64,000 nt of DNA from Rhizophagus irregularis (Eukaryota > Glomeromycota > Glomeromycetes > Glomerales > Glomeraceae), in assembly GCF_026210795.1 (NCBI RefSeq), contig NC_089456.1, positions 2,048,501 to 2,112,500 of the forward strand. The letters are read 5' to 3'. Positions 4,836-59,268 of this stretch are shown here, one piece after another. The translations under genes and the position numbers were made by a program. Position 1 is the stretch's first letter. Every line of letters begins with the position of its first letter. The notes under the pieces were generated by a model. That model saw only the letters and a program-made list of their open reading frames with translations. It ran no database searches and was not told the DNA's origin.

Positions 4836-4912
4836 TGTAAAGAGAAAGAAAAGAAAGGTATTTGTGTATCACATTTCACTACAGTATCTACCGGATAAAC
4901 TATATTAATTTT

Positions 4913-6508: not shown

Positions 6509-6688
6509 CACCCCATTCGCCTGATCGGCAAAGGATATAACCTTATCCATCGTGTCTCAAATGCATAGGTTATATCCTCCATGGAAACCACGGTTTTTAT
6601 TGGCCAATACTAAGCAGTGATCATGTGACCTTATAAGTGTAGACATTTTATCCTCGTAACTTAAGGACATTATTGTCTTAATAAATTT
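6509..6688 (+). repeat. Left terminal inverted repeat of KDZ element
   Basis: 180 bp matching 24143-24322 in reverse complement, with one difference seen (near 6671, ATTATT against ATAATT). It contains GGATATAACC (6533-6542) and its reverse complement GGTTATATCC (6568-6577), so each terminus can fold into a 10-bp hairpin with a 25-base loop. GGATATAACC is repeated in the right terminus at 24254 and 24289. Confidence 0.9.
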
Positions 6689-24142: not shown

Positions 24143-24322
24143 AAATTTATTAAGACAATTATGTCCTTAAGTTACGAGGATAAAATGTCTACACTTATAA
24201 GGTCACATGATCACTGCTTAGTATTGGCCAATAAAAACCGTGGTTTCCATGGAGGATATAACCTATGCATTTGAGACACGATGGATAAGGTTATATCCTT
24301 TGCCGATCAGGCGAATGGGGTG
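24143..24322 (-). repeat. Right terminal inverted repeat of KDZ element
   Basis: Reverse complement of 6509-6688 with one difference seen. The hairpin arms lie at 24254-24263 and 24289-24298. It ends GGCGAATGGGGTG directly before the TGGTAATT duplication. Confidence 0.9.
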
Positions 24323-27191: not shown

Positions 27192-28766
27192 TTAATCAAA
27201 TATCTGTATAAGCTGACGATTGTCAATAACTAAATCATTATATTTTTGAACTTCAATATTATGCAACTTAAATTCATTTACTTCGTCACTAAAGTCAAAC
27301 AATTCCTTACCATTATTCTTAAAATTCAAATACCTAACTCTTTTCTCCTTCATAATATATTCCTTTATATAAGGTAAAATATTATTATTATATTTTTGCA
27401 TAAGATCTCTAATTAACAATATCTTAATAAAAGTACCCTGGGAATTTTTTAGGAATACTTCAAAATCATTTGCATTAATGTAAAGAAACAAATTCAAATA
27501 TTCTAATTTTGAAGGAAGAATTTGTCCTAAATTTTGTAATAAAATTGAACTACTATTATCTAATTTAGACCTTTCACAACAAATAGAAAGACAATTAAGA
27601 TTCTGTTTCATATTTTCAATCAAATTGAGTACTGGATAAACAATCTCATCATTCATATTATAAATACCAAGTAATTTGATATTTTTACAATATTCTATAA
27701 CTGATTCAAGTATTTTCTGTTGTTCAACTTTGCTCAAGAAATTCACGCTCCTGAAATTCTCTAAATAACCACCAAATTTTCGTAGTAATAATAACAATGA
27801 TTCATCGACTTTTGATGATGCATCTATGAATAAGGATTTTAATTTAAATGGCTTAGTTAAATTAAGAATTTGTTGAATAAAACTAGTATTTATATAATGA
27901 CAATAAATGATATGAACAGATTCTAAAACATTTAATTGTTCAAACATTTCATTTAAATTGATTATACCTTTAAAATTAACGCGGTATAATGTGATAGAAT
28001 TTAAAGTATTTGAACAATGATTGTAATCTTTTGATAACAATAATGGTTGATAAAAAAGAAAATCATTACTATTACTTAATACAATTTTTTTAAGATTTTG
28101 ATGTGAATTAATTATTTGCAATATATATTTGTTAATTTGCGTATTATCATAAAAACTTAAAATAGAAAGTTTTAAATTTTTAATATTGCGAATAAAATTT
28201 ATATTTTGTAAAATTAACTTAATAATATCTGCATAATCATGTAAGATCATACTATGAGTTTTTATCTCAATTTCAAGAGTATGTATATTTATTTCATTTT
28301 CAATAAATATTTTTAATAGTGATGTTTGAATTAATCTTCCAAAATCAGATTCTGAACCTAAATCTTCCAAAGGATACTTATATTTGGATTTTCTAAAAAC
28401 ATCTTCAGACCATCTTTTAATAGAATGAATGAACTTCCACATATTCAAATATTTTATAAAACTGGGATAATTGAAAAGTGTGTTTGAAGATAATAAATTA
28501 TCATTAATTTCAAATTTATTAAATTTTGTTTTTAATTCACCATTTAAACTTAATAGGTAAATTCCAATAAAGCCATAATTTCTAGTAGAAAATGAATTTT
28601 CAGTAATTAAAAATGGATTTTCCCATAATAATGGAATCGTTAAACGACACCAAAATCTGTTGACTAAAGTACATGAATATAAAGTTGAAAAATCATTTCG
28701 AAAATACTTTATAATATTTTCTGTTAATTCAGGTAAGTTTCCTGAAAATATTTTTGAACATGTCAT
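27192..28766 (-). CDS. F-box/leucine-rich repeat protein
   Basis: A 524-aa intronless frame starting at MTCSKIFSGNLPELTENIIK, chosen by alignment with all paralogues although the frame stays open 47 codons farther upstream (there it would translate the conserved promoter block). F-box-like segment LYSCTLVNRFWCRLTIPLLWENP at about residues 29-51, then irregular leucine-rich repeats. Family motifs: CSNTLNSITLYRVNF, FIQQILNLTKPFKLKSLFID, LGQILPSKLEYLNL, IMKEKRVRYLNF. Closest relative in the window is the gene at 30326-31903, which shares the ENPF-(I/L)-(I/T)-ENS(I/F)STRNY insertion. Presumed SCF adaptor; substrate unknown. Confidence 0.85.
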   Translation of the reverse strand: MTCSKIFSGNLPELTENIIKYFRNDFSTLYSCTLVNRFWCRLTIPLLWENPFLITENSFSTRNYGFIGIYLLSLNGELKTKFNKFEINDNLLSSNTLFNYPSFIKYLNMWKFIHSIKRWSEDVFRKSKYKYPLEDLGSESDFGRLIQTSLLKIFIENEINIHTLEIEIKTHSMILHDYADIIKLILQNINFIRNIKNLKLSILSFYDNTQINKYILQIINSHQNLKKIVLSNSNDFLFYQPLLLSKDYNHCSNTLNSITLYRVNFKGIINLNEMFEQLNVLESVHIIYCHYINTSFIQQILNLTKPFKLKSLFIDASSKVDESLLLLLRKFGGYLENFRSVNFLSKVEQQKILESVIEYCKNIKLLGIYNMNDEIVYPVLNLIENMKQNLNCLSICCERSKLDNSSSILLQNLGQILPSKLEYLNLFLYINANDFEVFLKNSQGTFIKILLIRDLMQKYNNNILPYIKEYIMKEKRVRYLNFKNNGKELFDFSDEVNEFKLHNIEVQKYNDLVIDNRQLIQIFD

Positions 28767-28835
28767 TATAAGCGAAGAGTAAAAAGAAAGAGAATTGTGT
28801 ATCACAGTATCGACCGGATAAATTATATTAATTTT

Positions 28836-28850
28836 CGGAAGTGATTTCCG
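28836..28850 (-). promoter_or_regulatory. Conserved upstream palindrome of F-box genes
   Basis: CGGAAGTGATTTCCG, 70 bp upstream of the ATG at 28766, with the shared neighbour ACCGGATAAATTATATTAAT on the gene side. The spacer is two bases shorter than in the copy at 4913. Confidence 0.55.
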
Positions 28851-29490
28851 ATATTGTTTTACAATTCCGTCAATTGTGTGTAACGTGTTTAGGGAAAATC
28901 TTACCATTAATGTTTTGTCATGCCGTCACGTGATGACCTGCTTACGTTTTTATTATTTTTTCCCACTTTAGAAAAATTGCGTTTTTTATTATATTTCTGA
29001 GGGGGACAGACGGACAGTTAGCCTGATCTCTACTTGTCACCGCATTATATATGTCACCTGTACTACCACGTTAAATGGCGGGAGTGCTATTTATGTGTGG
29101 TAAGATTCCCCCGTGTTTAGTGATTAGTTTATGATTTACATACTGTGCCAATACTGGTGAAGAACCGATTGAACCATATAGATAAGCATGTCTTATTATA
29201 ATTTATATTTAAATTGTTGTCTTTTATTAAATCAAATTTTACACATTCTTCTAAACAACATCATTTTTTGACCTAAGAAGAACTTATTCCATTAATGACC
29301 TATTTTAGTTTTGAAGATCAAAAATAATTTTGTGTATTATTACCACCGTTGTTGACAAATATAATTCTCAATAAATCAATCAACTTTTTTTAACCCTCTT
29401 TATTAAACGCAATTAATAATTTAATGTATTATTGCCGCTTTCAAATGGTCGAAATTGATGTTGATCACGTTACAGTCGTTACATGGTGAC

Positions 29491-30325: not shown

Positions 30326-31903
30326 TTAATCAAGTTTCTGCATAAATTTATAATTGTCAATAACTGAATCACTATATCTTTGAACTCTAATATTATGTAA
30401 CTTAAATTCCTTTACTTCATCACTAAAATCAAACAATTCTGTATCTTTAAAATTCCTAAGATTCAAACACCTGACTCTTTTTTCCTTCATAATATATTCC
30501 TTTATATAAGGTAAAATATCATTAATTAATTTCCATGATGTTAAATCTTTAATTAACAATTTCTTAATAAAAGTACCTTGGGAATTTTTTAGGAATATTA
30601 CAAAATCACTTGCATTAATGTAAAAAAATAAATTTAAATATTCTAATTTAGAAGGAAGGATTTGTCCTAAATTTTGTAATAAAATTGAACTACTATTATC
30701 TAAACTAGATCTTTCGCAGCTGATGGAAAGACAATTAAGATTTTGTTTTATATTTTCAATCAAATTGAGTACTGGATAAACAATCTCATCTTTAACATTA
30801 AAAATACCAAGTAATTTGATATTTTTACAATATTCTATAACTGATTCAAGTATTTTCTGATGTTCAAGTTCGCTCCTGAAATACACGTACCTGAAATTCT
30901 CTAAATAACCACCAGACTTTTGTAATAAGAATAATAATGATTCATCTATTTTTGATGATGCATCTATGAATAAGGATTTTAATTTAAATGGCTTGGTTAA
31001 ATTAAGAATTTGTTGAATAAAACTAGTATTTAAAGAAATACAATGAATGATATGAATTGATTCTAAAACGTTTAATTGTTCAAACATTTCATTTAAATTG
31101 ATTATATCTTTAAAATTAATGCGGTATAATGCGATAGAATTTAAAGTATTTGAACAATTATAATCTTTTGATAATGATAATGGTTGATAAAAAAGAAAAT
31201 CCTTACTATTACATAATATAACTTTTTTAAGATTTTGATGTGAATTAACTATTTGCAATATACGATTGTTAATTGGCGTATTACAATTAATACTTAAAAC
31301 AGAAAGTTTTAAATTTTTAATATTGTGAATGAAATTTGTATTTTGTAAAATTAATTCAAGAAAATCTTCAAAATATATATCAAAATAAGATTTTGTCTCG
31401 ATTTCAAGAGTATGTATATTTATTTCATTTTCAATAAATATTTTTAATAGTGATGTTTGAATTAATATTCCAAAATCGGATTCTGAACCTAAATCTTCCA
31501 AAGAAGACTTATATTTGGATTCTAAAGTTCTAAAAACATCTTCAGACCACCTTTTGGCAGAAGAAATAAACTCCCACGTATTCAAATATTTAATAAAACT
31601 AGGATAATTGAAAAGTGTGTTTGAAGATAATAAATTATCATTAATTTTATATTCATTAAATTTTGTTTTTAATTCACCATTTAAATTATGTAGGTAAATT
31701 CCAATAAAGTTATAATTTCTAGTAGAAATTGAATTTTCAATAATTGAAAATGGATTTTCCCATAGTAATGGAATCGCTAAACGACACCAAAATTTGTTAA
31801 CTAAAGCACATGAATTTAAAGTTGAAAAATCATTCCGAAAATATTTTATAATACTTTCTGTTAATTCAGGTAAGTTTCCTGAAAATATTTTTGAACATGA
31901 CAT
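30326..31903 (-). CDS. F-box/leucine-rich repeat protein
   Basis: A 525-aa intronless frame from MSCSKIFSGNLPELTESIIK; the open frame extends 47 codons upstream but the conserved start is used. F-box-like segment LNSCALVNKFWCRLAIPLLWENP, then leucine-rich repeats with the family motifs FIQQILNLTKPFKLKSLFID, NLIENIKQNLNCLSISCERS, LGQILPSKLEYLNL and IMKEKRVRCLNLR. Very similar to the 27192-28766 gene over its full length and flanks, so the two arose by recent tandem duplication. Presumed SCF adaptor. Confidence 0.85.
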   Translation of the reverse strand: MSCSKIFSGNLPELTESIIKYFRNDFSTLNSCALVNKFWCRLAIPLLWENPFSIIENSISTRNYNFIGIYLHNLNGELKTKFNEYKINDNLLSSNTLFNYPSFIKYLNTWEFISSAKRWSEDVFRTLESKYKSSLEDLGSESDFGILIQTSLLKIFIENEINIHTLEIETKSYFDIYFEDFLELILQNTNFIHNIKNLKLSVLSINCNTPINNRILQIVNSHQNLKKVILCNSKDFLFYQPLSLSKDYNCSNTLNSIALYRINFKDIINLNEMFEQLNVLESIHIIHCISLNTSFIQQILNLTKPFKLKSLFIDASSKIDESLLFLLQKSGGYLENFRYVYFRSELEHQKILESVIEYCKNIKLLGIFNVKDEIVYPVLNLIENIKQNLNCLSISCERSSLDNSSSILLQNLGQILPSKLEYLNLFFYINASDFVIFLKNSQGTFIKKLLIKDLTSWKLINDILPYIKEYIMKEKRVRCLNLRNFKDTELFDFSDEVKEFKLHNIRVQRYSDSVIDNYKFMQKLD

Positions 31904-31986
31904 TGTAAGCAAGCGAAGAAGTAAAAAGAAAGAGATTTGTGTATCACATTTCACTACAGTATCAACCGGATAAATTATACTAATTT

Positions 31987-32004
31987 TGGAGTGGTGATTT
32001 TCCG
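31987..32004 (-). promoter_or_regulatory. Conserved upstream palindrome, one arm altered
   Basis: TGGAGTGGTGATTTTCCG lies 84 bp upstream of the ATG at 31903; the CGGAA arm is changed to TGGAG while TTTTCCG is kept. The CACTGTCACACAATTTATTG block follows upstream. Confidence 0.45.
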
Positions 32005-33500
32005 ACACTGTCACACAATTTATTGTGTGTAACGTGTTTAGCAAATAATTAGGCGTAATGATTTACATACTAATACTGGTGATAACCCACTTAATTCCGG
32101 TTAGAATTATAGATAAGCACGTCTTATTCGTCTTAATATAAATCTATATTAATCAAAATAAAATTTGTTTTTTTATTTTACTTATTAAATCAAAATTTTA
32201 CATTCTCAAAAACAATCTAAAAGATAGCATTTTTGATCTAAGAGAAGATTATTCTACTCATGACCTATTTTAGTTTTGAAATCCAAATAATTTTGTGTTA
32301 ATGTTACCACTATTGGCAATAAGTTCAATAAGTAGATCAATTTTGATCTTTATTAAACGTAATTATTTAGTTCATTATTGTCATTTTCAAAATGGTTGAA
32401 ATTGATGACGATCACGTAAGATGGAAAAATTTTGAAGAACGCATAAGAAAAAATATGTCGTATCAGTACTGTAATAAAAGAACATAAAATGCGCTTTTTT
32501 TTAATGCTGAAAATCTTATATTACGTTCTCAAAAAGTTTATAAAATATCATATAATTTTAATCATTTGGGTTTCAACATTACCTCTTATAAGATTTTAGC
32601 TGGAGGTAGAAATCGATAAGGTTAATCAATTAATCGATTAAGACGATTAATCGACTAAGATACCTCAAAAATCGGTTAATAGATTAATTTTATCGATTAA
32701 TTTAACCAATTAGAACGTAGAACATCTAAAAAAATTAGATATTTATTACTTCGATAAGTTTTTTTTAGTTAGACTGACTTCGTAAAAAAATAAAAAAAAT
32801 AAAAAAATCTCATTTTATGAAATTTTTTTTAAAAATAAGTCATTGTTTATCTTTGTAAAGCAGTTATTATAACCACCGGTCGAAGTGGTATAGTTTCCAC
32901 TATGAAATCCTTCCAATTTGCATTGCATTTCCACAATAACTGGAAACTTCATTGAAATCTAGAGTACACTATGGAAATTGGACAGGATCACCAAATTTTA
33001 ATAGTATAAACTTCATGTAAACCATATCTCTTCGACTTGTGATTTTTCTGAATATATCAACTATAGTAGTGTTGAAAATGTTAAAGAATCCTTCTTTTAC
33101 TACAATTTCTAAAAGGTCATCATTTTTGGGTTCATAACTAGTAGTCAATAGCGCAGTAAACAAAAAAAAAATTTTCTTTAAAAGAAATTTAAAATATATT
33201 ATATGCTCACGTTGCTAATAAGAATTACATAATTGAAACAATCTCTTATAGTAAACTTATAAAGTTTTATTTATTAAATTAATTAACATTGTATTTTACA
33301 AAATTTTCATATTTTTATTTTTTTTAGCATGATAATACGCTAAATAAACTTAAATCGTATCTCTCGTAATTTTTGGTACGGATTATTTTTTAACGTTCTC
33401 GTTAAAACTTTGTTTTAATAATTAACCTCTTTTACCAAAATAACCTTGAGAATAGTTTTCTACCCTATAAATTATAGCTTTTTATGCCCTTTTTTTATTC
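32005..33500. other. Intergenic, upstream flank plus ATCGATTAA repeats
   Basis: Up to about 32500 it is the shared upstream flank of F-box units. Bases 32610-32710 hold an imperfect cluster of ATCGATTAA/TTAATCGAT words. Bases 32880-33180 carry short inverted words (GTGGTATAGTTTCCACTATG) and a 64-aa minus-strand frame that I do not recognise. No gene is supported. Confidence 0.4.
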
Positions 33501-35847: not shown

Positions 35848-37230
35848 TTAATCAAGTTTCTGTGCAAATCGATAAATGTCTATATACAAATCACTATAAC
35901 TTTGAACTTCGATATTATGTAACTTAAATTCTTTCACTTCTTTACTAAAATGAAACAATTCTTCATAATTGTAGTAAATACTAAAACTTAAATACCTGAC
36001 TCTTTTCTCCTTCATAATATATTCCTTTATATAAGTTAAAATATTATCCTTATCTTCTCGCATAAGATCTCTAATTAACAATTTCTTAATAAAAGTACCC
36101 TTGGAATCTTTTAGGAATACTTCAAAGTCACTTGCTTTAATGAAGAGAGTCAAATCTAAATATTCTAATTTAGAAGGAAGGATTTGTCCTAAATTTTGCA
36201 AGATTATTGAACTACCATTTAAACATTCAAGGCTGATAATAAGACAATTAAGATTTTGTTTTATATTTTCAATTAAATTGAGTACAGGATAAACATCTTT
36301 AATTCCATAAATTTTAAAAAATTTGATATTTTTACAATACTTTATAACTGATTCAAATATTTGTTGCCCTAAACGATCGACACTGAGATTCTCTAAATAA
36401 TCACCAGATTTTTGCAATAATAGTGATAATGATTCATCAATTTTTGAACGCTCATCCATGAATAAGGATTTTAATTTAAATGGTTTAGTTAAATTAATAA
36501 TTTGTTGAATAATACTAGTATTTAAAGAAGGACAATAAATGATATGAACAGATTCTAAAACATTCAATTGTTCAAACATTTTATTTAAATTGATTATACC
36601 TTCAAAATTAATGTGGTATAATGTGATAGTATTCAAAGTATTTGAACAATTGTAATCTTTTGATAATAATAATGGTTGATAAAAAAGAAAATCATCAATA
36701 CTTTTACATAATACAATTTTTTTAAGATTTTAATGTGAATTAATTATTTGTGATATACGATTGTTAACTAGCGTTTTACCATAGGAATGTATAATAGAAA
36801 GTTTTAAATTTTTAATATTGCTAATGAAATTTGTATTTTGTAAAAATAACTCGAGAATATCATCAATATATGAGATGTGACTAGTATTTATCTCAATTTT
36901 AAGGGTATGTAAATTTACTTCATTTTCAATAAACATTTTTGATAGTGATATAATAATTAGTTTTATAATATTTTTTTCTGGATTAAAACCTGACCTTTGT
37001 GTAAAAGGATTGAACCACTTTATAACAGATTTAGGAATCTTCAACAAATTCAAATATTTTATAAAACTAGGATAATTGAAAAGTGTGTTTGAAGGTAATA
37101 AATTATAATTAATATTATATTTATATAATTCTGTTTTTAATTCATCGTTTAAATTATGTAGGTAAATTCCAATAAAGTTATGATTTTTAGCACGAATTGA
37201 ATGTTCAGTGATTGAAAATGGATTTTCCCA
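35848..37230 (-). pseudogene. F-box family gene, N-terminus deleted and one nonsense codon
   Basis: The minus strand reads continuously as family protein from WENPFSITEHSIRAKNH (37230) to the stop at 35848, except for one CAA-to-TAA change in the SHQNLKK motif near 36730. Open parts are therefore 37230-36733 and 36729-35848. The F-box itself (about 45 codons), the ATG and the proximal promoter are missing: the codons for LLWENPF abut upstream sequence ATTATCGTCGCACATTGATT, which normally lies about 100 bp before the ATG. Motifs CSNTLNTITLYHIN, IIQQIINLTKPFKLKSLFMD and LGQILPSKLEYLDL are intact. Dead or at least F-box-less. Confidence 0.8.
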
Positions 37231-37898: not shown

Positions 37899-39536
37899 TT
37901 AATCCATTTCTTTAATAAATTCATAAACTTTAATAAATAAATCATAATAATATTGAATTTTAATATTATATAATTTAAATTCTTTCACTTCATCTTTCAA
38001 TGAAAATAAATCTTTACTTTTAAAGATAACTTCTGAAGAATTTTCAAAAAAAGTATCCATAATAGCCAAATATTTAACCCTCCTCTTTTTCATAATATAT
38101 TCCTTTATAAAAGGTAAAATATCTTCACTATCTTCTCTCATTTTATTATTAATTAATAATTTTTTAATAAAAGTATTTTGAGAATTTTTTAAGAAAATTT
38201 CAAAATCACTTACGTTAATATTAAGAGTCAAATTTAAATATTCTAATTTAAAAGGTAAAGTTTGACCTAAATTTTTTAATATTATTGAACTACGTTTAAT
38301 ACCATCACTTAATAATAAATTTTCACATACGTTAATAGAAAGATAATTAAGATTTTGTTTTATATCTTCAATTAAATCAAAAGAAAGATAAATAATTTGA
38401 TCTTCAAATCCATATAAATCAAAAAATGAAATATTTTTACAATATTCCATAATTAATATAAATAATTGACGTTTAAATAATAAATCATAACCAAAACCAA
38501 AACCAAAATTTTCTAAATAATCACCAGATTTTTGTAATAATGATTGTAATGGATCAACATGTGACATTTCATTTATAAATAAAGATTTTAATTTAAGTGG
38601 TTTTGTTAAATTAATAATTTGTTGAATAAAATGAGTATTTAAAGAATAACAATAAATAATATGAACAGATTCTAAAACATTTAATTGTTCAAATACTTTA
38701 TTTAAATTAATCATACTTTTAAAATTAACATAATAAAATATGATTGTATTTAATGTATTAGAACAATTTGAATTTAATATTGTTTGATATAAAGGAAGAC
38801 TATTATAACTAAATAAGATTTTCTTAAGATTTTTTTGTGAATTAATAATTTGTGATAAAGATTTTATAGTTAAAGTATTTTCATTATTATCACGAAATGG
38901 ATAATAAAATGGGGTATCACCAACATATAATTTTAAATATTTAATATTATTAATAAAATTTGGATTTTGTAAAATTAATTCAAGAATATCATTAAAATAA
39001 TCATGATAAATATATGAAATAATTTCAATATCAAAAGTATTTAATTTTACTTCATTTTCAATAAATAATTTAAATAATGATCTATTAATTAATCTTTTAA
39101 ATTCAAATTCTGAACGTGAAATTGAATCTTGTAAAAAAAAATTTAAAAGTCTTTTTTCAGTAGTTAAAGTTCTAAAAATTGTAGAAGAAACCCATTTTTC
39201 AATAGATGAAATAATTTTCCATGTATTTAAACTTTTAATAAAATTTGGATAATTAAATAATGTATTTGAATTAAATAAATAATTTTTAATCTCATATTCA
39301 TTTAATTTTGTTTTTAAATCATTATCATTTAAATTATGTAAATAGATTATAATAAAATTAAAATTTTTGGTAGGAATTGAAAATGGATCTTCCCATAATA
39401 ATGGTATCGCTAAACGACACCATAATCTGTTAACTAAAATACATGAATATAAAGTTGAAAAATCATTATGAAAATATTTTATGATTTCAGATATTAATTC
39501 TGGTAAATCTCCTGAAAATATTTTTGAACAAGACAT
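37899..39536 (-). CDS. F-box/leucine-rich repeat protein
   Basis: A 545-aa intronless frame from MSCSKIFSGDLPELISEIIK; 15 upstream in-frame codons are ignored because the conserved start aligns. F-box-like segment LYSCILVNRLWCRLAIPLLWEDP. Leucine-rich repeats include VGDTPFYYPFRDNNEN, shared only with the next gene, plus FIQQIINLTKPLKLKSLFIN, DYLENFGFGFGYD and YIMKKRRVKYLAIMD. The pair 37899-39536 and 40090-41724 forms its own subclade. Codon use is more extreme in A+T than in its neighbours. Presumed SCF adaptor. Confidence 0.85.
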   Translation of the reverse strand: MSCSKIFSGDLPELISEIIKYFHNDFSTLYSCILVNRLWCRLAIPLLWEDPFSIPTKNFNFIIIYLHNLNDNDLKTKLNEYEIKNYLFNSNTLFNYPNFIKSLNTWKIISSIEKWVSSTIFRTLTTEKRLLNFFLQDSISRSEFEFKRLINRSLFKLFIENEVKLNTFDIEIISYIYHDYFNDILELILQNPNFINNIKYLKLYVGDTPFYYPFRDNNENTLTIKSLSQIINSQKNLKKILFSYNSLPLYQTILNSNCSNTLNTIIFYYVNFKSMINLNKVFEQLNVLESVHIIYCYSLNTHFIQQIINLTKPLKLKSLFINEMSHVDPLQSLLQKSGDYLENFGFGFGYDLLFKRQLFILIMEYCKNISFFDLYGFEDQIIYLSFDLIEDIKQNLNYLSINVCENLLLSDGIKRSSIILKNLGQTLPFKLEYLNLTLNINVSDFEIFLKNSQNTFIKKLLINNKMREDSEDILPFIKEYIMKKRRVKYLAIMDTFFENSSEVIFKSKDLFSLKDEVKEFKLYNIKIQYYYDLFIKVYEFIKEMD

Positions 39537-39597
39537 TGTAAGTGAAAGAAAATAAAATAAAAAAAAAAAAAGGCCGTTCACCGGATAAATTGATTTT

Positions 39598-39613
39598 CGG
39601 AACGTTACTCCCG
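39598..39613 (-). promoter_or_regulatory. Conserved upstream palindrome of F-box genes
   Basis: CGGAACGTTACTCCCG, 62 bp upstream of the ATG at 39536, preceded on the gene side by CACCGGATAAATTGATTTT and followed by ATAATGTCGCACAGC. Confidence 0.5.
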
Positions 39614-40089
39614 ATAATGTCGCACAGCTGATTTTTTAATTTGTAATCATGATCAACATGTGAAGGCTGTGAAGCGTAAAGCGTAACCAATCATTATTCA
39701 ATGATTTATCACGTGTTCAACTGATAATTTTACCGACGAAAAAATTTGAAATAATGAAAATTAATAATATAAATTAGGAATTTATTCAAAAAAAAAAGCG
39801 AAAACATCTAAGAGCGCTCATAAAATAGTATGTTGTAATAGATTACCCTTAAAGATTGCTAAGATTTGTCCGCCAAAAGTTATAGTAAAAAAGAAAGACG
39901 ATGGAGTACGCGAACATAAATTTCGTTGTAAAAGAATTTATATTATATAAACAATTCGCTTTTTTATTTATACGCAAATATATTTTTTATAACGTTCAGA
40001 CATAAAATTTTCATTATATAGTAAATTTAAAAGATAATAAACTTTATTTATAAAATATATATGTTGTGTGTTCTAATAATAATAATCAA
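39614..40089. other. Intergenic between paired F-box genes
   Basis: AT-rich; 39620-39720 carries the promoter-distal part of the shared module. No gene and no clear repeat. Confidence 0.5.
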
Positions 40090-41724
40090 TCACATTTCTT
40101 TAATAAATTCATAAACTTTAATAAACAAATCATAATAAGCTTGAACTTTTATATCATGTGACTTAAATTCCTTCACTTCATCTTTTAAATAATATAAATC
40201 TTTACTTTTTGTAAGAACTTCTGCGGAATTATTAAAAAAAGAATCCATAATAGCTAAATATTTGACTCTTTTCTCTTTCATAATATATTCCTTTATATAA
40301 GATAAAATATTTTCGCTATCCTTTCTCATTTTATTATTAATCAACAACTTTTTAATAAAAATATTTTGGGAATTTTTCAAAAATATTTCAAAATCACTTG
40401 CATTAATATGAAGTATCAAACTTAAATATTCCAGTTTAGAAGGAAGTATTTGTCCTAAATTCCTCAATATTAATGAACTACGTTCAATATCATCAACCAA
40501 TTGAAAAGTTTCACAAACATTGATAGAAAGATAATTAAGATTTTGTTTAATACTAACAATTAAATTGAACGCCAAATAAATTATTTGATTTTCAAAACCA
40601 TAGAAATCAAAAAATTTGACATTACTACAATATTTTATAATTAATTCAAGCATTTGTCGTTTTAATGTATCATAACCAAATCCGAACCCACAATTTTCTA
40701 AATAACGACCAGATTTCTCTAATAATAATTTTAATGGTTCAATTTGTAATATTTCATCTATAAATAAGGATTTTAATTTAAATGGTCTAGATAAATTAAT
40801 AATTTGTTGAATAAAATCGATATTTAAAGTATAACAATAAAAGATATGAACGGATTCTAAAACATTTAATTGTTCAAATGCTTTATTTAAAGTGGTCATA
40901 TTTTTGAAATTAATACAATAAAAAACGATCGTATTTAAAGTATTTGAACAATTATAATTATCTAATGATAATATAGATTGATATAAAGGAAGACTATTAG
41001 AACTAAATAAAATTTTTTTAAGATTTTTTTGTGAATTAATAATTTGACATAAAGATTTTTTAATCATATTATTTTCATTTTTATCACGAAAAGGATAATA
41101 AAATGGGGTATCACCAACATGAAGTTTTAAATTCTTAATATTATGAATAAAATTTGAATTTTGTAAAATTAAATTAAGAACATCTTGAAAATAATCATGA
41201 TAAATATATGAAATGGTTTCAATTTCTAAAGTATTTAAATTTACTTCATTTTCAATAAATATTTTAAATAATGATTTATTGGTTAATCTAATAAAATTAA
41301 ATTCTGAACGTGAATCTGTAAAATGATTTGTTGGCCATTTTTCAGTCATTAATTTTCTAAGAATCACAGTTGAAACCCATTTTTCAATAGAAGAAATAAT
41401 TTTCCATGTGTTTAAATATTTGATAAAAATAGGATAATTAAATAATGTACTATTATAAGGAAATAAATAATTTTTAATATCATATTCACTCAATTTTGAT
41501 TTAAAATCATCATCATTTAAAGTACATAAATAAATTTCAATAAAATTATAATTTTTGGTAGGGATTGAAAATGGATCTTCCCATAATAATGGTATCGCTA
41601 AACGACACCATAATCTATTAACTAGAATACATGAATGTAATGTTGAAAAGTCATTCCTAAAACATTTTATAATTTCATATATTAATTCAGGTAAATTTCC
41701 TGAAAATATTTTTGAACAAGACAT
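40090..41724 (-). CDS. F-box/leucine-rich repeat protein
   Basis: A 544-aa intronless frame from MSCSKIFSGNLPELIYEIIK. F-box-like segment LHSCILVNRLWCRLAIPLLWEDP at about residues 28-50. The leucine-rich body shares VGDTPFYYPFRDKNEN, CGFGFGYD and KYLAIMDSFF with its neighbour at 37899-39536, indicating a recent duplicate. Full family length, no lesion. Presumed SCF substrate receptor; substrate unknown. Confidence 0.85.
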   Translation of the reverse strand: MSCSKIFSGNLPELIYEIIKCFRNDFSTLHSCILVNRLWCRLAIPLLWEDPFSIPTKNYNFIEIYLCTLNDDDFKSKLSEYDIKNYLFPYNSTLFNYPIFIKYLNTWKIISSIEKWVSTVILRKLMTEKWPTNHFTDSRSEFNFIRLTNKSLFKIFIENEVNLNTLEIETISYIYHDYFQDVLNLILQNSNFIHNIKNLKLHVGDTPFYYPFRDKNENNMIKKSLCQIINSQKNLKKILFSSNSLPLYQSILSLDNYNCSNTLNTIVFYCINFKNMTTLNKAFEQLNVLESVHIFYCYTLNIDFIQQIINLSRPFKLKSLFIDEILQIEPLKLLLEKSGRYLENCGFGFGYDTLKRQMLELIIKYCSNVKFFDFYGFENQIIYLAFNLIVSIKQNLNYLSINVCETFQLVDDIERSSLILRNLGQILPSKLEYLSLILHINASDFEIFLKNSQNIFIKKLLINNKMRKDSENILSYIKEYIMKEKRVKYLAIMDSFFNNSAEVLTKSKDLYYLKDEVKEFKSHDIKVQAYYDLFIKVYEFIKEM

Positions 41725-41801
41725 TGTAAACGAAGAGAGTAAAAAGGAAAGAAGGGTAGGGCGTTCACTTTATTTGGAAACGGTTAAATTATATTAATGT
41801 T

Positions 41802-44403: not shown

Positions 44404-44478
44404 AAAATTATTATATGGTCGACATCATCACACCATAGTAAATAAATACCCCTCCTCTTTTTTCTCTTCGCTTATAAT

Positions 44479-46005
44479 ATGGCATGTTCAAAAATATTAT
44501 CAGGAGACTTACCTGAATTAACATATGATATTATAAAATATTTACTGGATGATTTTTCAACTTTACATTCATGCATTTTAGTTAACAGATTATGGTGTCG
44601 TTTAGCGATTCCATTATTATGGGAAAATCCTTTTTCAATTCCTACAAAAAATTACAAATTTATTGAAATTTACTTACTTAGTTTAAATGATGATTTTGAA
44701 ACAAAGCCTTCAAACACACTGTTCAATTATCCTAGTTTTTTAAAATATTTAAATATATGGAAATTTATGATTTGTGTTGAAATATGGTCTAGAAATGCTA
44801 TTAGAACCTTAAAACCTGAAAGATATTTTATATATGATACATATAAATATTCAAAAACTGAATTTATGAAATTAATTAGTATATCATTATTTAAAATATT
44901 TATTGAAAATGAAGTAACTTTACATACACTTGATATTGATATTAGCGATCATCGTTATTATTGTTCCTATTTTAATGATATTTTTGAATTAATTTTACAA
45001 AATGGTACAAATTTCATTCATAATATTAAAAATTTAAAATTTTGTACTAGTACTCATAGTTCATTTGATAATGAAGATATGTTGCTTAAAAATCGTATAT
45101 CACAAATAATTGATACACATCAAAATCTTAAAATAATTTTATTATGTCATAATTATTTACCTTTATATCAATCATTATTGTTATCAAAAAATTCTAATTG
45201 TTCAAATACTTTAAATACTATCATGTTTTATCATATCAATTTTGGGAGTATATTTAATATAGATATATTATTTGAACAATTAAATGTTTTAGAATCTGTT
45301 CATATCTTTTTTTGTTATTCTTTAAATAGTTTTATTCAAAAAATTATTAATTTACCTAAACCATTTAAATTAAAATCTTTATTTATAAATGAGAAATTAC
45401 GAATTGAATTATTACCATTATTGTTACAAAAATCTGGTGATTATTTAGAGAATTTTGAATGTGAACTTAATTATGATGAACAAAGATTATTAGAATTAAT
45501 TACAAAATATTGTAAAAATATCAAATTTCTTGATATATATGGATTTGAAAATCATTTTACTTCTCTAATATTCAATTTAATTGAAAATATTAAACAAAAT
45601 CTTAATTATCTTTCGATCGGTGTAGATTATCAAAATGGTAATATCGAATCTAATTCAATATTATTACAAAATTTAGGACAAATCCTTCCTCCTAAATTAG
45701 AATATTTAAATTTAGTTCTTTACTTTAAAGTAAATGATTTTAAAGTTTTCTTAAGAAATTCTCAAGGAACTTTTATTAAGAAATTGTTAATAAATCAAAA
45801 AGGTAGTGATGATATTTTACATTGTATAAAGGAATTTATTATGAAGGAAAAAAGAGTCAAATATTTGGCTATAAGGAATTCTAATGATGGTGAATTACGT
45901 CGTTTTGAAAATGAAGCAAAGGAATTTGAGTTATATAATATTAAATTACAATATTATTATGCCATATTTATTTATTCTTATAATTATATGAAGGAGCTTT
46001 ATTAA
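44479..46005 (+). CDS. F-box/leucine-rich repeat protein, opposite orientation
   Basis: A 508-aa intronless frame from MACSKILSGDLPELTYDIIK. F-box-like segment LHSCILVNRLWCRLAIPLLWENP at about residues 28-50, then the usual leucine-rich body with NCSNTLNTIMFYHINF, FIQKIINLPKPFKLKSLFIN, NLIENIKQNLNYLSIG, LGQILPPKLEYLNL and IMKEKRVKYLAIRN. The only family member in this window on the plus strand with a complete frame; a fragment of a second lies at 42025-42225. Presumed SCF substrate receptor. Confidence 0.85.
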   Translation: MACSKILSGDLPELTYDIIKYLLDDFSTLHSCILVNRLWCRLAIPLLWENPFSIPTKNYKFIEIYLLSLNDDFETKPSNTLFNYPSFLKYLNIWKFMICVEIWSRNAIRTLKPERYFIYDTYKYSKTEFMKLISISLFKIFIENEVTLHTLDIDISDHRYYCSYFNDIFELILQNGTNFIHNIKNLKFCTSTHSSFDNEDMLLKNRISQIIDTHQNLKIILLCHNYLPLYQSLLLSKNSNCSNTLNTIMFYHINFGSIFNIDILFEQLNVLESVHIFFCYSLNSFIQKIINLPKPFKLKSLFINEKLRIELLPLLLQKSGDYLENFECELNYDEQRLLELITKYCKNIKFLDIYGFENHFTSLIFNLIENIKQNLNYLSIGVDYQNGNIESNSILLQNLGQILPPKLEYLNLVLYFKVNDFKVFLRNSQGTFIKKLLINQKGSDDILHCIKEFIMKEKRVKYLAIRNSNDGELRRFENEAKEFELYNIKLQYYYAIFIYSYNYMKELY

Positions 46006-47809: not shown

Positions 47810-49083
47810 CTATTTATGCTTGATTTTCATCTGTCCCGTGCTTGATATTTATCTGTACGTGCTTGATATTTTTATCTGTTCATGCTTGATGTTTTTATCT
47901 GTCCATGCTTGAGGTTTTATCTGTATGTACTTGATGTTTTTATCCAATTGTATTTGACTTTAATTTTATCTTGTCAAAAATTAGTTTCTTTGTCAACACA
48001 GAGGTGATATTTTGTCAATCACATGTTTTTTAAGTTTAGCATAGTTTTTACACGAAGAATTTTTTTTATTTTATTAGCTTTTTTTTTATAAAACAATTTT
48101 TGTAGAGAATTTTTATTTTTAATATAGGAAAAGGCTTTTTTTTATAAAATTCTTTTGGGATTTTTTTTAATAAAAAGACTTTTTTCGATAAAAATTTTGT
48201 TAGAGAATTTTTTTATTGATAGGGACATTTCTGAGTTTTTTTTTCAATGGATAATTTTGTTAAAAAATTTAAATTTCATTGGAGAATTTTTTTTTGTAGA
48301 AAATTCTTTGGAGAATTTTTTTAATGAAAGACTAATTTTGTCAAAAATTTTTTTAACAAATGAGATTTTTTTTTTGATAGAGAATTTCGTTAAGAATTTT
48401 TTTTTAATAGGAGGGAGTTTTCCTTGATAAAGAATTTCTTTTTGGAATTTTTTTTAATAGTGAAAATATTTTTTGACAGAATTTTATTAGAGAATTTTTT
48501 TTAATAGGGGGATTGTTTTTGATAGAGGATTTTATTAAAGAATTTTTCTTTAATAGTAAGATAAATGATTTCGCTGAGAATTTTTTTTTTTTGATAGAAA
48601 TTTCATCACTGTCCATACATTACACTACTTAATGTATAACTCCAAGGCTGTTCTTGCTTCATTTCAACGGAATTCATGTCTAGAATAATGTCCTAAAGAA
48701 AAAAGAGAAGGAACGTTAGTAACATTCCCAAATTAAAAAAAAACCAAGTACCCTTTCCTTAACTTACATTTCTGTCATCTTTTTAAATAATAATAAAATT
48801 ATTATTTTAAAAATGATCGGTAAAAAAAAAAATATATTTTTTTTTATACAAAAAGTTGATTATTGTTACCACCGGTTTATAACGTTTGGTAGGTAGTAAC
48901 AGAAATAAATATAAGGATCGGTTAATGAATGATAAAATAATATGACGATATATATAACAAGTGGTAAGGTAAAAGTGTTTATTAACCTTGCGTTATATAC
49001 CATTATTTATTTATAAACGATAGCAAACAATAGTGAACAATAATAATCAATGTGACAAATTAAGGGTAGATCAGAGTGGATGT

Positions 49084-51860: not shown

Positions 51861-52971
51861 TTATTAAAATTGTAAAATTTAATAAAAAATTTTCCAATAA
51901 ATTTTCAATCAATTTTTTATAAAAAAAAAAGATCTCAAAAAAAAAAAAAAAAAAAATTTCAAGCCAAAATTCTTGATATACTTATCTTACCTATTAAAAA
52001 AAAAAATTCTATGATGAAATATCTATTAAGGAGAAATTCTTTAATGAAATCCTCTATCAAAAAAAAATCTTCCCTATTAAAAAAATTCTTCAAATAATTT
52101 TCTACAAAAAAAAAAAAAATTCTCAATGAATTCTCTATCAAAAAAAAAATCTCTCCTGTTAAAAAAATTGTTTCAACAAATTAAGTATATGTCAAAAAAA
52201 AAAATCTTATTAAAAAAAAATTCTCCAATGAAATTTCTATCAAATAAAAGTTTTTAACGAAATTATCCATCAAAAAAAAAACTCAGAAATGTCCCTATCA
52301 ATGAAAAAAATTCTCTAACGAAATTTATTATCAAAAAAAAATCTTTTTATTAAAAAAATTCCCAAAGAAATTCTATCACACAAAGCCTTTGCCTATATTA
52401 AAAATAAAAATTCTCTACAAAATTTGTTTATAAAAAAAAGCCAATAAAAAAAAATTATTTAAAAACTACGCTAAACTTAAAAACATGTGATCAACAAAAT
52501 ATCAACCCTGTGCTGACAAAGAAACTAATTTTGACAAAGATAAAATTATCGAGTGTAGTTGGATTAAATCAAACACAGTTGGACAAAAACATCAAGCACA
52601 GACGGACAAAAATATCAAGCAAAGATGGATAAAAATGTCAAGCATGATCGGATAAAACCATCAAGCACGTACAGATGAACAACAAGCACATACAGATAAA
52701 CATCAAGCACATACAGATAAAACATCAAGCACATACAGATAAAACATCAAAGCACGTACAGATAAAACATCAAGCACGTACAGATAAACATCAAGCATAA
52801 ACAGATAAACATCAAGCATAAACAGATAAAAATATCAAGCTGATTCAAGCACGTACAGATAAATATCAGATTAAGCATGAACAGGTAAAATGTCAGGCAC
52901 GGTGTAACATTTTGTCAATCCATGCTTTGATTTTTCACCCGCGATAGTTTAGTCCAACTCGGCTTGCCATA

Positions 52972-53798: not shown

Positions 53799-56700
53799 AT
53801 GTTTTCTCAAAAAATACCTTTGACAAGAAATAATATTCTGAAATATTTAAGAAACAATTTTACAAATTGGACCAGTGGAAATGAAAGAATCGATAATTTC
53901 ATTCAAGAAAGGCAATTAAAAATAAACGACTATGAATATGATAATATAATGCTTGAATGGATACCATACAATCAGTTTAATGAAATTAAAGAGACAGGCA
54001 AAAATGACCTTATTACAGTATATTCAGCAACATGGAAGGATGGTCCATTATATAAGAAGGAAAGATGGAATAATTATACAAGAATTTCAAATAAAAAAGT
54101 TGCTTTAAAATGCTTATATAATTCACAAGAATCTATTGATTTAATAAATGAGGTATGAAATTTTTTTAAGTATTTAAATACTTTCTTTTCTAATTAGTAT
54201 AATTACAATTTTTTTTATTTAGGCTAAAAAATATACAATACAACATAATGCATTTCAAGTATTGTATGGAATTTCTCAAAATCCAGATACAGGAAATTAT
54301 ATTTTAGTTCAAAATAGTTCTATAAACTTGGCAAATTGGATCAGTGGAAATGAAAAAATTGATAATTATATTCAAGAAAGGCAATTAAAAGCAAATGATT
54401 ATGAAGATACAGTACTTGAATGGATACCATATGATCAGTTTAATGAAATTAAAGAAACAGGCAGAAATGGGTTTATAACATTATATTCAGCAATATGGAA
54501 GGATGGTCCATTATGCAAGAAGCATTGGCGGGATGAAAATTATACAAGAAATTCAAATAAAAAAGTTGGTTTAAAATATTATTCACAAGAATCCATTGAT
54601 TCATTAATGAATAAGGTATGAATGAAGTTTTTTAAATATTTAAATATTTCTTCTTTTAATTAGTATCATAATTACTACAATTTATTTTATCTAGGTTAAA
54701 AAGTATTTAACAAAACATAAAGCATTTCAAGTGTTATATGGATTATCCCAAAATCCAGATACAGGAAACTATTTTTTAGTTCAAAATAGTTCTATAAACT
54801 TGGCAAATTGGATCAGTGGAAGTGAAAAAATTGATGATTTCATTCAAGAAAGGCAAATATTTAATTATTATGATGATACAGTGCTTGAATGGATACCATA
54901 CAATCAGTTTAATGGAATTAAGGAGATAAGCGAAAATGGCCTTACAACAGTATATTCAGCAATATGGAAGGATGGTCCATTATATTATGATCATGAGAAA
55001 TATGAATATAAAAGAAATTCATATAAAGAAGTTGCATTAAAATGTTTATATAATTCACAAGGATCCATTGATTCTTTAATTAATGAGGTATGAAATTTTT
55101 TTAAATATTTAAATACTTTTTTTTTGTTGATATATTTACAATTTTTTTATTTATAATTAGGCAAAAAAATATCCAACAAAACATAAATCATTTCAAGTAT
55201 TGTATGGTATATCCCAAAATCCAGATACAAGAAATTATATTTTAGTTCTTATCTGGACAAGTGGGAATGAAAAAATTGATGACTTCATTCAAGAAAGACA
55301 ATTAAATATTAATGACTGTGAGGAAATAGTGCTTGAATGGATACCATACAATCAGTTTAATGAAATTAAAAGAACAGACAAAAATGGCCTTGTAAAGGTA
55401 TATTCAGCAATATGGAAGGATGGTCCGTTATGCAAGAAGGAGAATTGGAGGAATTATACAAGAAAATCAAATAAAGAAGTTACTTTAAAATGTTTAAATA
55501 ACTCGCAAGAATTTATTGATTGTTTAATTAATGAGGTATTTAATTTCTTTAAATATTTAAGTACTTTGTTTTAATTAATATTTTTACAATCTCTTTTATT
55601 TTATATTTAGGCTAAAAAATATCCAATAAAACATAATTCTTTTCAAGCATTATATGGAATATCTCAAAATCCAAATACAGGAGATTTTATTTTGGTTCTT
55701 ATTTGGACAAGTGGAAATGAAAAAATTGATGATTTTATTCAAGAAAAGCAATTAAAAATTAATAATTATGACGATGATATAGCACCTGAATGGATATCAT
55801 ATAATCAGTTTAATGAAATTATAGAGACAGAAAAAAATGACGTTATAACAGTATATTCAGCAATATGGAAGGATGGTCCATTATATTGGAATGTACAGAA
55901 TAAAAATTACGTAAGAGAATCAAATAAAAAAGTTACTTTAAAATGTTTATGTAATTCACAAGAATCCATTGATTCTTTAATAAATAAGGTATTTAATTAT
56001 TTTTATATATTTAAATAATATTCTTTAATTAATATATTGCTTTTTTATTTATAATTAGGCTAAAAAATATCCAACAAACCGTAAATCATTTCAAGTATTG
56101 TATGGTATATCTCAAGATCCCGATACGGGAGATTATATTTTAGTTCTTATTTGGACAAGTGGAAATGAAAAAATTGATGACTTCATTCAAGAAAGGCAAT
56201 TAAGTATTAATGTTTATAATGATATAGTGCTTGAATGGATACCATACAATCAGTTTAGTGAAATTAAAGCGTCAGGTAAAAATGGTTTTATAACAGTATA
56301 TTCAGCAATATGGAAGAATGGTCCATTATACAAGACGGATAATTGGAGGAATTACTATATAAGAAATTCAAACAAAAGAGTTGCATTAAAATGTTTAGAT
56401 AATTCGCAAGAATTTATTGATTATTTAATAAATGAGGTATTTAAATTTCTTTAAATATTTAAATAGTACCTTTTTTTAATTAATATACTTACAGTCTCTT
56501 TCATTTATATTTAGGCTAAAAAATATCCAACAAAGTATAATACATTTCAAGTATTATATGGATTATCTCAAGATCCAAACACAAGAAATTATATTTTGGT
56601 TCTTATCTGGGCAAGTGGAAATGAAAAAATTGATGAATTTATTCGAGAAAAGCAATTAAATATTAATTACTATGATGATATAATGCCTGAATGGATATCA

Positions 56701-59268
56701 TATAATCAGTTTAATGAAATTAAAGAGATAGGCAAAAATGATTTTATAACAGTATATTCAGCAGTATGGAAGGATGGTCCACTATGCAAGATGACTAAAT
56801 GGAGTAATTATACAAGAGATTCAAATAAAGAAGTTGTTTTAAAATTATATAATATACAAGGATCCATTGATTTCTTAATAAATGAGGTATTTAATTTCAT
56901 TAAATCTTTAAATACATTTTTTTAATTAATAAATTTACAATTTTTATATTATAATTAGGCTAAAAAATATTCAACAAAATATAAATCATTTCAAGTATTG
57001 TATGGTATGTCTCAAAATCCAAATACAGGAAATTATATCTTAGTTCAAAAAAATAGTACATGGATCAGTAAAAATAAAATAATTAATGATTTTATTCAAG
57101 AAAGACAATTAAAAATAAATGATAATAATTATGAAGATATTGTATTTGAATGGATACCGTACAATCAATTTGATGAAATTAAAAAAATGGTAAAAATAGT
57201 TTTATGAAAATATATTCAGCAATATGGAAGGATGGTCCATTGTGCAAAAAGAATATGCAAAGTAAAAATTATATTAGAGATTCAAATAAAAAAGTTACTT
57301 TAAAATGTTTATATAATTCAAACGAATCCATTAATTCTCTTATAAATGAGGTATGAAATTTTTTTTAAAAATTTAAATACATTTTTTTAATTAATGTATT
57401 TACAATCTCTTTTTATTTATAATTAGGCTAAAAAGTATCCAACAAATCATAAATCTTTTCAAGTATTGTATGGTATATCTCAAAACCAACATACAGGAGA
57501 TTATATATTGGTTCAAAAAAATAGTATATGGATCAGTGGAAATGAAAAAATTGATGATTTCATTCAAGAAAGGCAATTAAAAATAAATGATGATAATTAT
57601 GATGATATAATGCTTGAATGGATCCCATACAATCAGTTTAATGAAATTAAAGAAACAGGTAAAAATGACCTTATAACAGTATACTCAGCAATATGGAAGG
57701 ATGGTCCATTATATTATGATCATCAGGAATATAAATATAAAAGAAATTCAAATAAAAAAGTTGCTTTAAAGTGTTTACATAATTCACAAGGATCCATTGA
57801 TTCTTTAATTAATGAAGTATGAAATTTTTTTTAAATATTTAAATATTTTTATTTTTGTTAAGATATTTACAATTTTTTTTATTTATAATTAGGCTAAGAA
57901 ATATCCAACAAAATATAAATCATTTCAAGTATTGTATGGTATATCTCAAAATCCAGATACAGGATATTATATTTTAGTTCTTATCTGGACAAGTGGAAAT
58001 GAAAAAATTGATGATTTTATTCAAGAAATGCAATCAAAAATAAATGACGATGATGATGACATTATAGTATTTGAATGGATACCATATAATCAGTTTAATA
58101 ATATTAAGGAAATAGGTAAAGGTGGCTTTGCTACAGTATATTCTGCAAATTGGAAAAATGGTATATTAAAATATGATGTAGATAGAAAAATATATAATAG
58201 GGACCCAAATAGAGTAATTGCCTTGAAATCTTTACATAATTCCCAAAATATTACTAATAAATTTTTAAATGAGGTATGAATTTTTTTTAAAAAATTATTA
58301 TAATAGAATAATTTTTTATGGGTTTAATTTATAATTTAATTTAAGTACAATGTAATAATAATAATTTTTGCTATTAATAGGTTAAAGAATACTCAATAAA
58401 TAAAAAAAGTAATGTCCTCAATATATATGGAATATCTCAAAATCTAAACACAAAAGAATATGTTATGGTTCTTCAATATGCAAAAGATGGCAATTTTAAT
58501 CAATGGATAAAAGAAAATTATGAATATTTTATTTGGGAAAATAAATTATCTGCATTGCTTAATATTATTAATGGTATTAAAGAAATTCATCAAAAAAGTT
58601 TAGTTCATCGTGATTTTCATACAGGAAACATTTTATTTTTAAGTAATATAGATAATTTTGGTAATTGTATATCAATTTCAGATATGGGATTATGTGGAGA
58701 AGTTGGTAATATAGATGAAACAAAAATTTATGGAGTTATGCCTTATGTAGCTCCTGAAGTATTAAGAGGTAAACCTTATACACAAGCAGCAGATATCTAT
58801 AGTTATGGTATGATAATGTATTTTGTAGCAACTGGAAAGCAACCTTTTGGTGATTGTGCACATGATCATAATTTAGCATTAGATATTTGCAAAGGAGTTA
58901 GACCTGAAATAAGTGAACCAGAAGCACCAAGATGTTATATTGATTTAATGAAAAAGTGTTGGGATATTGACAAAAATAATAGACCAGATATTTTTGAAAT
59001 AGATAAATTAATCAATTCATTTCATAAGTCATATGGAGGAGATATTTTCATTGTAGAAGATGAAGAAATTGAAATGCAATTTAAGATAGCAGAAGAATAT
59101 AGAAAAGAAAATCCTTCATCTATTGAAAATTACAAAACAGTTACTCATCCACAAGCTATTTATACATCTCGATTACTTAATCCTTTTACAAAAGACCTTC
59201 CAAAATATGATGATGATTATAATTCTCAATATTTAGACGATTGTGCACTTCCAATTAATTTCAATTAA
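53799..59268 (+). CDS. Protein kinase with ten tandem N-lobe exons and one C-lobe
   Basis: I read 11 exons: 53799-54152, 54223-54615, 54695-55087, 55161-55535, 55611-55988, 56059-56436, 56515-56886, 56959-57350, 57427-57816, 57893-58273, 58381-59268. Introns are 70-107 nt, GTAT...AG, all phase 0. Exons 1-10 each encode one copy of SGNEKIDDFIQERQLKIN + LEWIPYNQFNEIKE + GKNGxxTVYSAIWKDGP + KVALKCL + SIDSLINEV, i.e. kinase subdomains I-III. Exons 2-10 open with subdomain IV-V sequence (FQVLYGISQNPDTGNYILV). Only exon 10 has a canonical loop GKGGFATVYSA. Exon 11 has the catalytic part: HRDFHTGN, SDMGLC in place of DFG, VAPEVL, and ADIYSYGMIMY. TKL-like fold expected to be active with exon 10. Exon 8 is one base short (392 nt). 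Full product about 1,430 aa without exon 8. It could also be a row of partial duplicates with only the last module expressed. Confidence 0.75.

Follow-up and report, generated by a model that had tools for sequence, protein, structure and literature searches.

The window analyzed here is a stretch of 64,000 nucleotides (contig NC_089456.1, positions 2,048,501 to 2,112,500). Its positions 53799-59268, on the + strand, hold an eleven-exon protein kinase gene, in which ten homologous exons form a tandem array of amino-terminal kinase lobe (N-lobe) sequences ahead of a single catalytic exon. Tandem Repeats Finder reports the array at 53868-58162 (+), with a period of 448, 9.4 copies, 78% matches, and a score of 4292, far above chance. 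All ten introns are of the GT-AG type, measure 70-107 nucleotides (nt), and lie in phase 0 (between codons), and reading through any of them leads to an in-frame stop. Exon length is divisible by three in nine of the ten array exons, the exception being exon 8 (392 nt). Kinase subdomains I-III close exons 1-10, subdomains IV-V open exons 2-10, and the HRDFHTGN and APE motifs of the carboxy-terminal lobe (C-lobe) are confined to exon 11. The coordinates, repeat number, intron phase, subdomain distribution, and single C-lobe had all been proposed in an initial annotation of the locus, and are borne out by this analysis. A tblastn search with exons 9, 10, and 11 (E 0.01) retrieved no additional copy elsewhere within the window.

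Exon 1 (53799..54152, + strand, like all exons and introns described below) begins with an ATG and a 22-residue leader, followed by a linker (NWTSGNERIDNFIQERQ) and subdomains I-III, with a changed glycine loop (GKNDLI) and the VALK motif. Intron 1 (54153..54222; 70 nt, GT-AG, phase 0) belongs to a set of nine homologous introns within the array, 70-79 nt long. Subdomains IV-V, linker, and subdomains I-III then succeed one another in exon 2 (54223..54615; loop GRNGFI, VGLK, and a lysine at the position of the αC glutamate), exon 3 (54695..55087; SENGLT), exon 4 (55161..55535; DKNGLV), exon 5 (55611..55988; EKNDVI, again with a lysine at the αC glutamate position), exon 6 (56059..56436; GKNGFI), exon 7 (56515..56886; GKNDFI), and exon 9 (57427..57816; GKNDLI). 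Exon 8 (56959..57350) is an array module disrupted by a frameshift near 57190, with in-frame stops; its two pieces are otherwise open, and the loop, GKNSFM, was taken from the frame of the second. Exon 10 (57893..58273) combines array-type IV-V and linker with subdomains I-III carrying a canonical-looking glycine loop (GKGGFA), IALK, and FLNE. Intron 10 (58274..58380; 107 nt, GT-AG), which cuts αC at the same position as the array introns, leads to exon 11 (58381..59268), containing the remainder of αC, IV-V, the sole C-lobe (HRDFHTGN, DMG, APE), a C-terminal tail, and the stop codon.

Module architecture and glycine loops

With strand and helix labels following general kinase knowledge, each of exons 2-10 is a permuted N-lobe, consisting of strands β4-β5 (FQVLYGISQNPDTGNYILV), a linker (W.SGNEKIDDFIQERQL), and strands β1-β3 with the first half of helix αC (EWIPYNQF to LINE). 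Every intron interrupts αC, so that a complete N-lobe consists of the tail of one exon and the head of the next. For this reason, the array holds nine surplus complete N-lobes, the tenth, made of the exon 10 tail and the exon 11 head, belonging to the terminal kinase. The nine joined units (tail of exon k and head of exon k + 1, omitting the unit that begins in exon 8) are 96-98 residues long; relative to the unit of exons 9-10, the array units are 71-85% identical and the canonical unit 54%.

The terminal kinase is readily recognized. Exon 11 alone, which codes for the kinase catalytic half, matches PF07714 with 109.1 bits, and spliced exons 9-11 give a full-length kinase match of 142.8 bits over model positions 4-255 of 258 (cut-off 23.1). 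Against the PDB, exon 11 alone matched 2253 sequences, with EGFR, Roco4, and TAK1 as the best (among the best 60 of the 2253). The motifs GKGGF, IALK, and FLNE are present in exon 10, and HRD and APE in exon 11; as deviations, DMG replaces DFG, and HRDxKxxN is without its lysine. Several other candidates were set aside in these searches. Three unrelated PDB chains retrieved with the N-lobe unit profile, at E 0.09 or worse, were dismissed. In spliced exons 1-7, BCS1_N has a whole-protein score above its cut-off, but no single stretch passes alone, neither for this model nor for seven other Pfam models; these are taken as chance sums of weak repeat matches. A sigma-70 scan, being meaningless for a eukaryote, was discarded.

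Among the ten modules, only exon 10 has a canonical-looking glycine loop (GKGGFATVYSA). In all nine surplus modules, the second glycine of GxGxxG is replaced by asparagine, and none of them has the loop of an active N-lobe; the first glycine is additionally lost in three of the nine (exons 3, 4, and 5). The β3 lysine is retained in nine of nine and the αC glutamate in seven, exons 2 and 5 being those with lysine. This degeneration and the loss of one base in exon 8 go beyond the initial annotation. Because the glycine-to-asparagine change is common to all nine modules, it suggests that the array grew from a single module that was already altered.

Whole-unit identities among modules M1-M9 are 0.77-0.88, corresponding to pairwise differences of 12-23%. 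Exon 10 is a hybrid of array-type and canonical sequence: in blocks of 80 alignment columns, its first two blocks reach identities of up to 94-96% with one or another array module, and the later ones no more than 83%, 72%, 65%, and 73%. In the whole-unit tree, modules 4 and 6 pair with a support of 0.965 and modules 5 and 7 with 0.724; of these pairs, the codon tree recovers only the first (0.897). The whole-unit topology would fit the copying of a block of two modules (4-5 to 6-7), although the 5-7 pair is absent from the codon tree. Since the nearest neighbor changes along the unit, the modules look mosaic. As a separate observation, the synonymous distance within β2 (VYSAIWKDGPL; exons 1-7 and 9) is only 0.10, versus about 0.3 overall, and lies below the values of all 200 null runs. 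Possible causes are local gene conversion and a constraint at the DNA or RNA level.

Translation and constraint of the array

Array exons 1-7 and 9 contain no stop codon amid 321 substitutions from the consensus, whereas a neutral simulation based on the intron mutation spectrum (2000 runs) yielded a mean of 29.0 stops, with a minimum of 14. Only the stop count was kept from this simulation; the count of amino-acid changes (190 versus 226) was left unused, as it includes simulated stops. Gap lengths follow the reading frame in the exons, with 91 of 107 pairwise gaps divisible by three among exons 2-10 (exon 8 included), versus 28 of 105 among introns 1-9.

As an array merely kept open as a passenger also predicts an absence of stops and in-frame gaps, drift purged of stops was simulated along the module tree. 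The ratio of nonsynonymous to synonymous differences per site (pN/pS) is 0.58 for eight exons (exons 8 and 10 dropped; 106 of 139 codon columns), against null values of 1.04, 1.02, and 0.90 under three mutation spectra, with none of the 150 runs as low in each. Over all 139 columns, it is 0.57, a value reached by none of 200 null runs. Counting stop-producing changes as nonsynonymous sites overstates the constraint, with a median of 0.46 (nine exons, exon 8 dropped) and 0.86 for the β2-β3 hairpin. The ratio was also determined by region (exons 1-7 and 9, one mutation spectrum, 200 null runs). It is 0.38 for the head, 0.49 for the linker, 0.47 for β1 with the loop, and 0.44 for β2, with no null run as low for any of them, and 0.41 for αC, with one null run as low. 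Diversifying selection on the hairpin finds no support among these regions, as 38 of 200 null runs are as high as its ratio of 0.97, and none of the regions exceeds 1.

Purifying selection on the array is, thus, observed, and is moderate; the amino-acid constraint appears to extend across the modules, except for the hairpin and β3. Since no stop is found where 29 are expected, and pN/pS is 0.58 rather than 0.90-1.04, the array looks as if it was translated over most of its history.

Origin, product, and competing explanations

On balance, the locus probably goes back to a kinase gene that underwent tandem duplication internally, with serial splicing of the exons into one long protein bearing an N-terminal array of pseudo-N-lobes. 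The ancestor would have been a two-exon gene for a tyrosine-kinase-like (TKL) kinase, probably in an arbuscular mycorrhizal fungus (Glomeromycotina). The duplicated segment would have started at the N-terminal linker (NWTSGNE...), crossed the phase-0 αC intron, and extended to strand β5, and this unit would then have expanded to nine surplus copies. With the exons joined in order, the predicted protein would have 1,433 residues without exon 8, or about 1,560 counting the length of exon 8. It would present nine pseudo-N-lobes in series, each with the second loop glycine replaced and the β3 lysine kept, followed by one complete kinase domain. Such an array may form a scaffold of repeats at the N-terminus, which would use its N-lobe faces to dock partners or to self-associate, and would thereby position or restrain the terminal kinase. 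Whereas the anatomy, the homology, the lost glycine motif, the retained frames and splice sites, and the moderate selection are observed, serial splicing and a stable protein are, like this role, what we infer.

A more elaborate and tentative proposal is that the N-lobe has here turned into a protein repeat. Nine N-lobes with defective ATP loops, completed across exon junctions and under purifying selection, would possibly display a freely varying β2-β3 hairpin on a conserved frame, recruiting partners or restraining a putatively active terminal kinase. Copy number could change by unequal crossing-over, so that array length would differ between isolates.

Several results weigh against a folded and functional array. 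Pfam detects no kinase in exon 1 alone, in exon 2 alone, or in spliced exons 1-7, and in exon 10 alone only one at E 0.021, under the cut-off; searching the PDB with a profile of the nine N-lobe units retrieved no kinase either. The AlphaFold model of the exon 9 module agrees with the expected order of elements in the second half of the module, although its confidence is low, with a mean predicted local distance difference test (pLDDT) score of 56.4. Foldseek returned no match to this model at E 0.001 or better, and among 50 of its 483 matches, the kinases FGFR1, EGFR, and JAK1 occur only at E above 1. The putative fold of the modules is, thus, assigned by homology to exons 10-11, and not by AlphaFold or Foldseek. 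With 45 of 200 null runs as low as its ratio of 0.75, β3 is indistinguishable from drift, and so is the hairpin, for which 162 of 200 runs are as low. The pairwise distance of exons 2-10 (0.195) about equals that of introns 1-9 (0.190), and the constraint on the exons is, therefore, not strong. Exon 8 is one base short relative to its neighbors, beside a run of seven A, with three in-frame stops downstream of the deletion. Lastly, the scaffold role is purely one that we infer.

Because exon 8 continues past its break in an open frame of its own as far as the donor, the break is probably recent, or a sequence error. The current allele would be recently damaged, mis-sequenced, or subject to skipping of exon 8. 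If the deletion is real and the exon included, the protein would terminate before the kinase; skipping exon 8 would preserve the frame, since the flanking exons meet at phase 0. An unlikely explanation, favored in part by this exon, is a decaying or silent array: the gene would now begin around exon 10, or the locus as a whole would have become a pseudogene recently. Along with the frameshift and stops of exon 8, a methionine in the exon 10 linker (EMQ) offers a possible start, and exon 10 alone has a normal-looking glycine loop. Nevertheless, the eight other array exons tested are all free of stops, all ten introns keep GT-AG, and exon 8 is otherwise open. Such open frames and splice sites reject a long silence, but not a recent one. 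Silence of exons 1-9, which the initial annotation had named as grounds for abandoning its proposal, is, thus, unlikely for the past, while the frameshift leaves the present allele in doubt.

The main competitor to the scaffold role is a passenger array, whose repeats are present in the messenger RNA and kept open so that the terminal kinase gets made, but drift without a job of their own. It is rather doubtful, although the loss of the glycine motif in all nine surplus modules, the similar exon and intron distances, and the drift-like hairpin (0.97) and β3 (0.75) are what it would predict. It is at odds with an overall pN/pS lying under all 3 × 150 stop-purged runs and with the low ratios of heads, linker, β1, β2, and αC; avoidance of misfolding alone could, however, yield such low ratios. 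A splicing cassette, the second possibility raised in the initial annotation, would join one or a few N-lobe tails straight to exon 11 and produce kinases with alternative N-lobes. Introns of phase 0 at the same position would let any tail join exon 11 in frame (the exon 8 tail only from its own frame), and a product of exons 1 and 11 would match an ordinary two-exon kinase in size. The same symmetry is, however, expected from the duplication of an intron-containing unit, and hence provides no evidence for a cassette. In addition, the glycine loop is changed in nine of ten tails, and no region has a pN/pS over 1, the highest being 0.97. The short introns (70-107 nt) also favor the joining of neighbors, a deduction from ascomycetes, to which the fungus considered here probably does not belong. 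For ascomycete fungi, intron definition is deduced from intron lengths of less than 100 nt, alternative splicing being nonetheless frequent in fungi (PMC6616335). The cassette, lacking positive evidence, is highly improbable, and of the two possibilities initially raised, it is the single protein with degenerate repeats that is supported by the stop counts, the pN/pS values, the splice sites, and the changed loops. Expansion of a shorter array by misassembly is scarcely credible: tandem repeats are prone to this artefact, but the pairwise differences of 12-23% among M1-M9 are excessive for duplicated reads, and frames and splice sites are retained in the array exons.

Genomic surroundings and known systems

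The window has a guanine-cytosine content of 0.19-0.30 in 2-kb steps. Similar long open reading frames (ORFs) are clustered at 459-2065 (-), 3303-4868 (-), 27192-28925 (-), 30326-32062 (-), 35848-37230 (-), 37899-39635 (-), 40090-41769 (-), and 44446-46005 (+). Most of them begin with a M.CSKIFSG.LPEL-like sequence, and the copies at 35848-37230 and 459-2065 are each split over two ORFs. In the two cluster ORFs scanned (30329-31990 and 44476-46002), an F-box-like model gives a weak match, below the cut-off. A piece of a KDZ (Kyakuja-Dileera-Zisupton) transposase lies at 11053-11493 (100.3 bits). The base composition, the ORF cluster, and this transposase piece are the features that speak for the probable origin of the window in the Glomeromycotina. 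Two large satellite arrays, at 6642-8859 and 22570-24167, run in opposite orientation and consist of 26/52-bp units based on TTGTCCTCATAATTTTGAGGACA-like sequence; the second has, in addition, a higher-order unit of 223 bp with 93% matches. Copies of a 21-23 bp repeat occur at 52568-52840 and 47816-47944, about 5 kb apart and in opposite orientation (ATCAAGCACGTACAGATAAA / TTTATCTGTACGTGCTTGAT), and the kinase gene starts about 1 kb downstream of the nearer one (52568-52840).

A kinase that amplifies its N-lobe only, drops the glycine motif, and keeps the copies as protein would be an unusual build, kinase domains being, to our knowledge, normally gained or lost whole. In the open-licence literature, no kinase with repeated N-lobes was found, in agreement with the initial annotation, nor any paper text with the sequence motifs searched. 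The catalytic exon, its core, and the module alignment had no relative among viral, bacterial, and archaeal contigs, a comparison that is uninformative on uniqueness. If the proposed build is correct, a repeat unit can be derived from half a catalytic domain, and the array would offer a test case for the folding and binding of N-lobes alone. Should the stretch come from an arbuscular mycorrhizal fungus with many expanded signaling genes, duplication within a gene would be one source of new architectures there.

JAK-type pseudokinase-kinase pairs and the tandem kinases of obscurin and SPEG resemble the array in placing degenerate or extra kinase units next to an active one, but these are whole bilobal domains in low number. 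Ankyrin, spectrin, and similar repeat proteins have amplified symmetric exons, with equal phase at both ends. Exons are likewise amplified in the present gene, where the unit comprises one half of an enzyme domain, with its parts permuted (IV-V, linker, I-III).

PF07714 is reported as the commonest motif among the expanded genes of Rhizophagus irregularis (PMC6123716), whose expanded families are occasionally found in tandem arrays of duplicate genes (PMC8647823). The expanded PF07714/TKL families of this species and the gene described here are, thus, PF07714 kinases alike, but those families are presented there as whole gene copies, whereas here a half-domain is repeated within one gene. Plant tandem kinase proteins (WTK1/Yr15, RPG1, and others), which often arose via duplication (52 of 92; PMC6170490), likewise combine a kinase and a degenerate kinase part in one polypeptide. 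As described there, they have two kinase or pseudokinase domains, while the present gene, probably from a fungus, has a single kinase preceded by nine N-lobes that lack C-lobes. Because only one C-lobe is present in the gene and the window, and not at least two domains with both lobes, the gene is filed with the multi-unit (pseudo)kinase proteins, outside the plant tandem kinase group.

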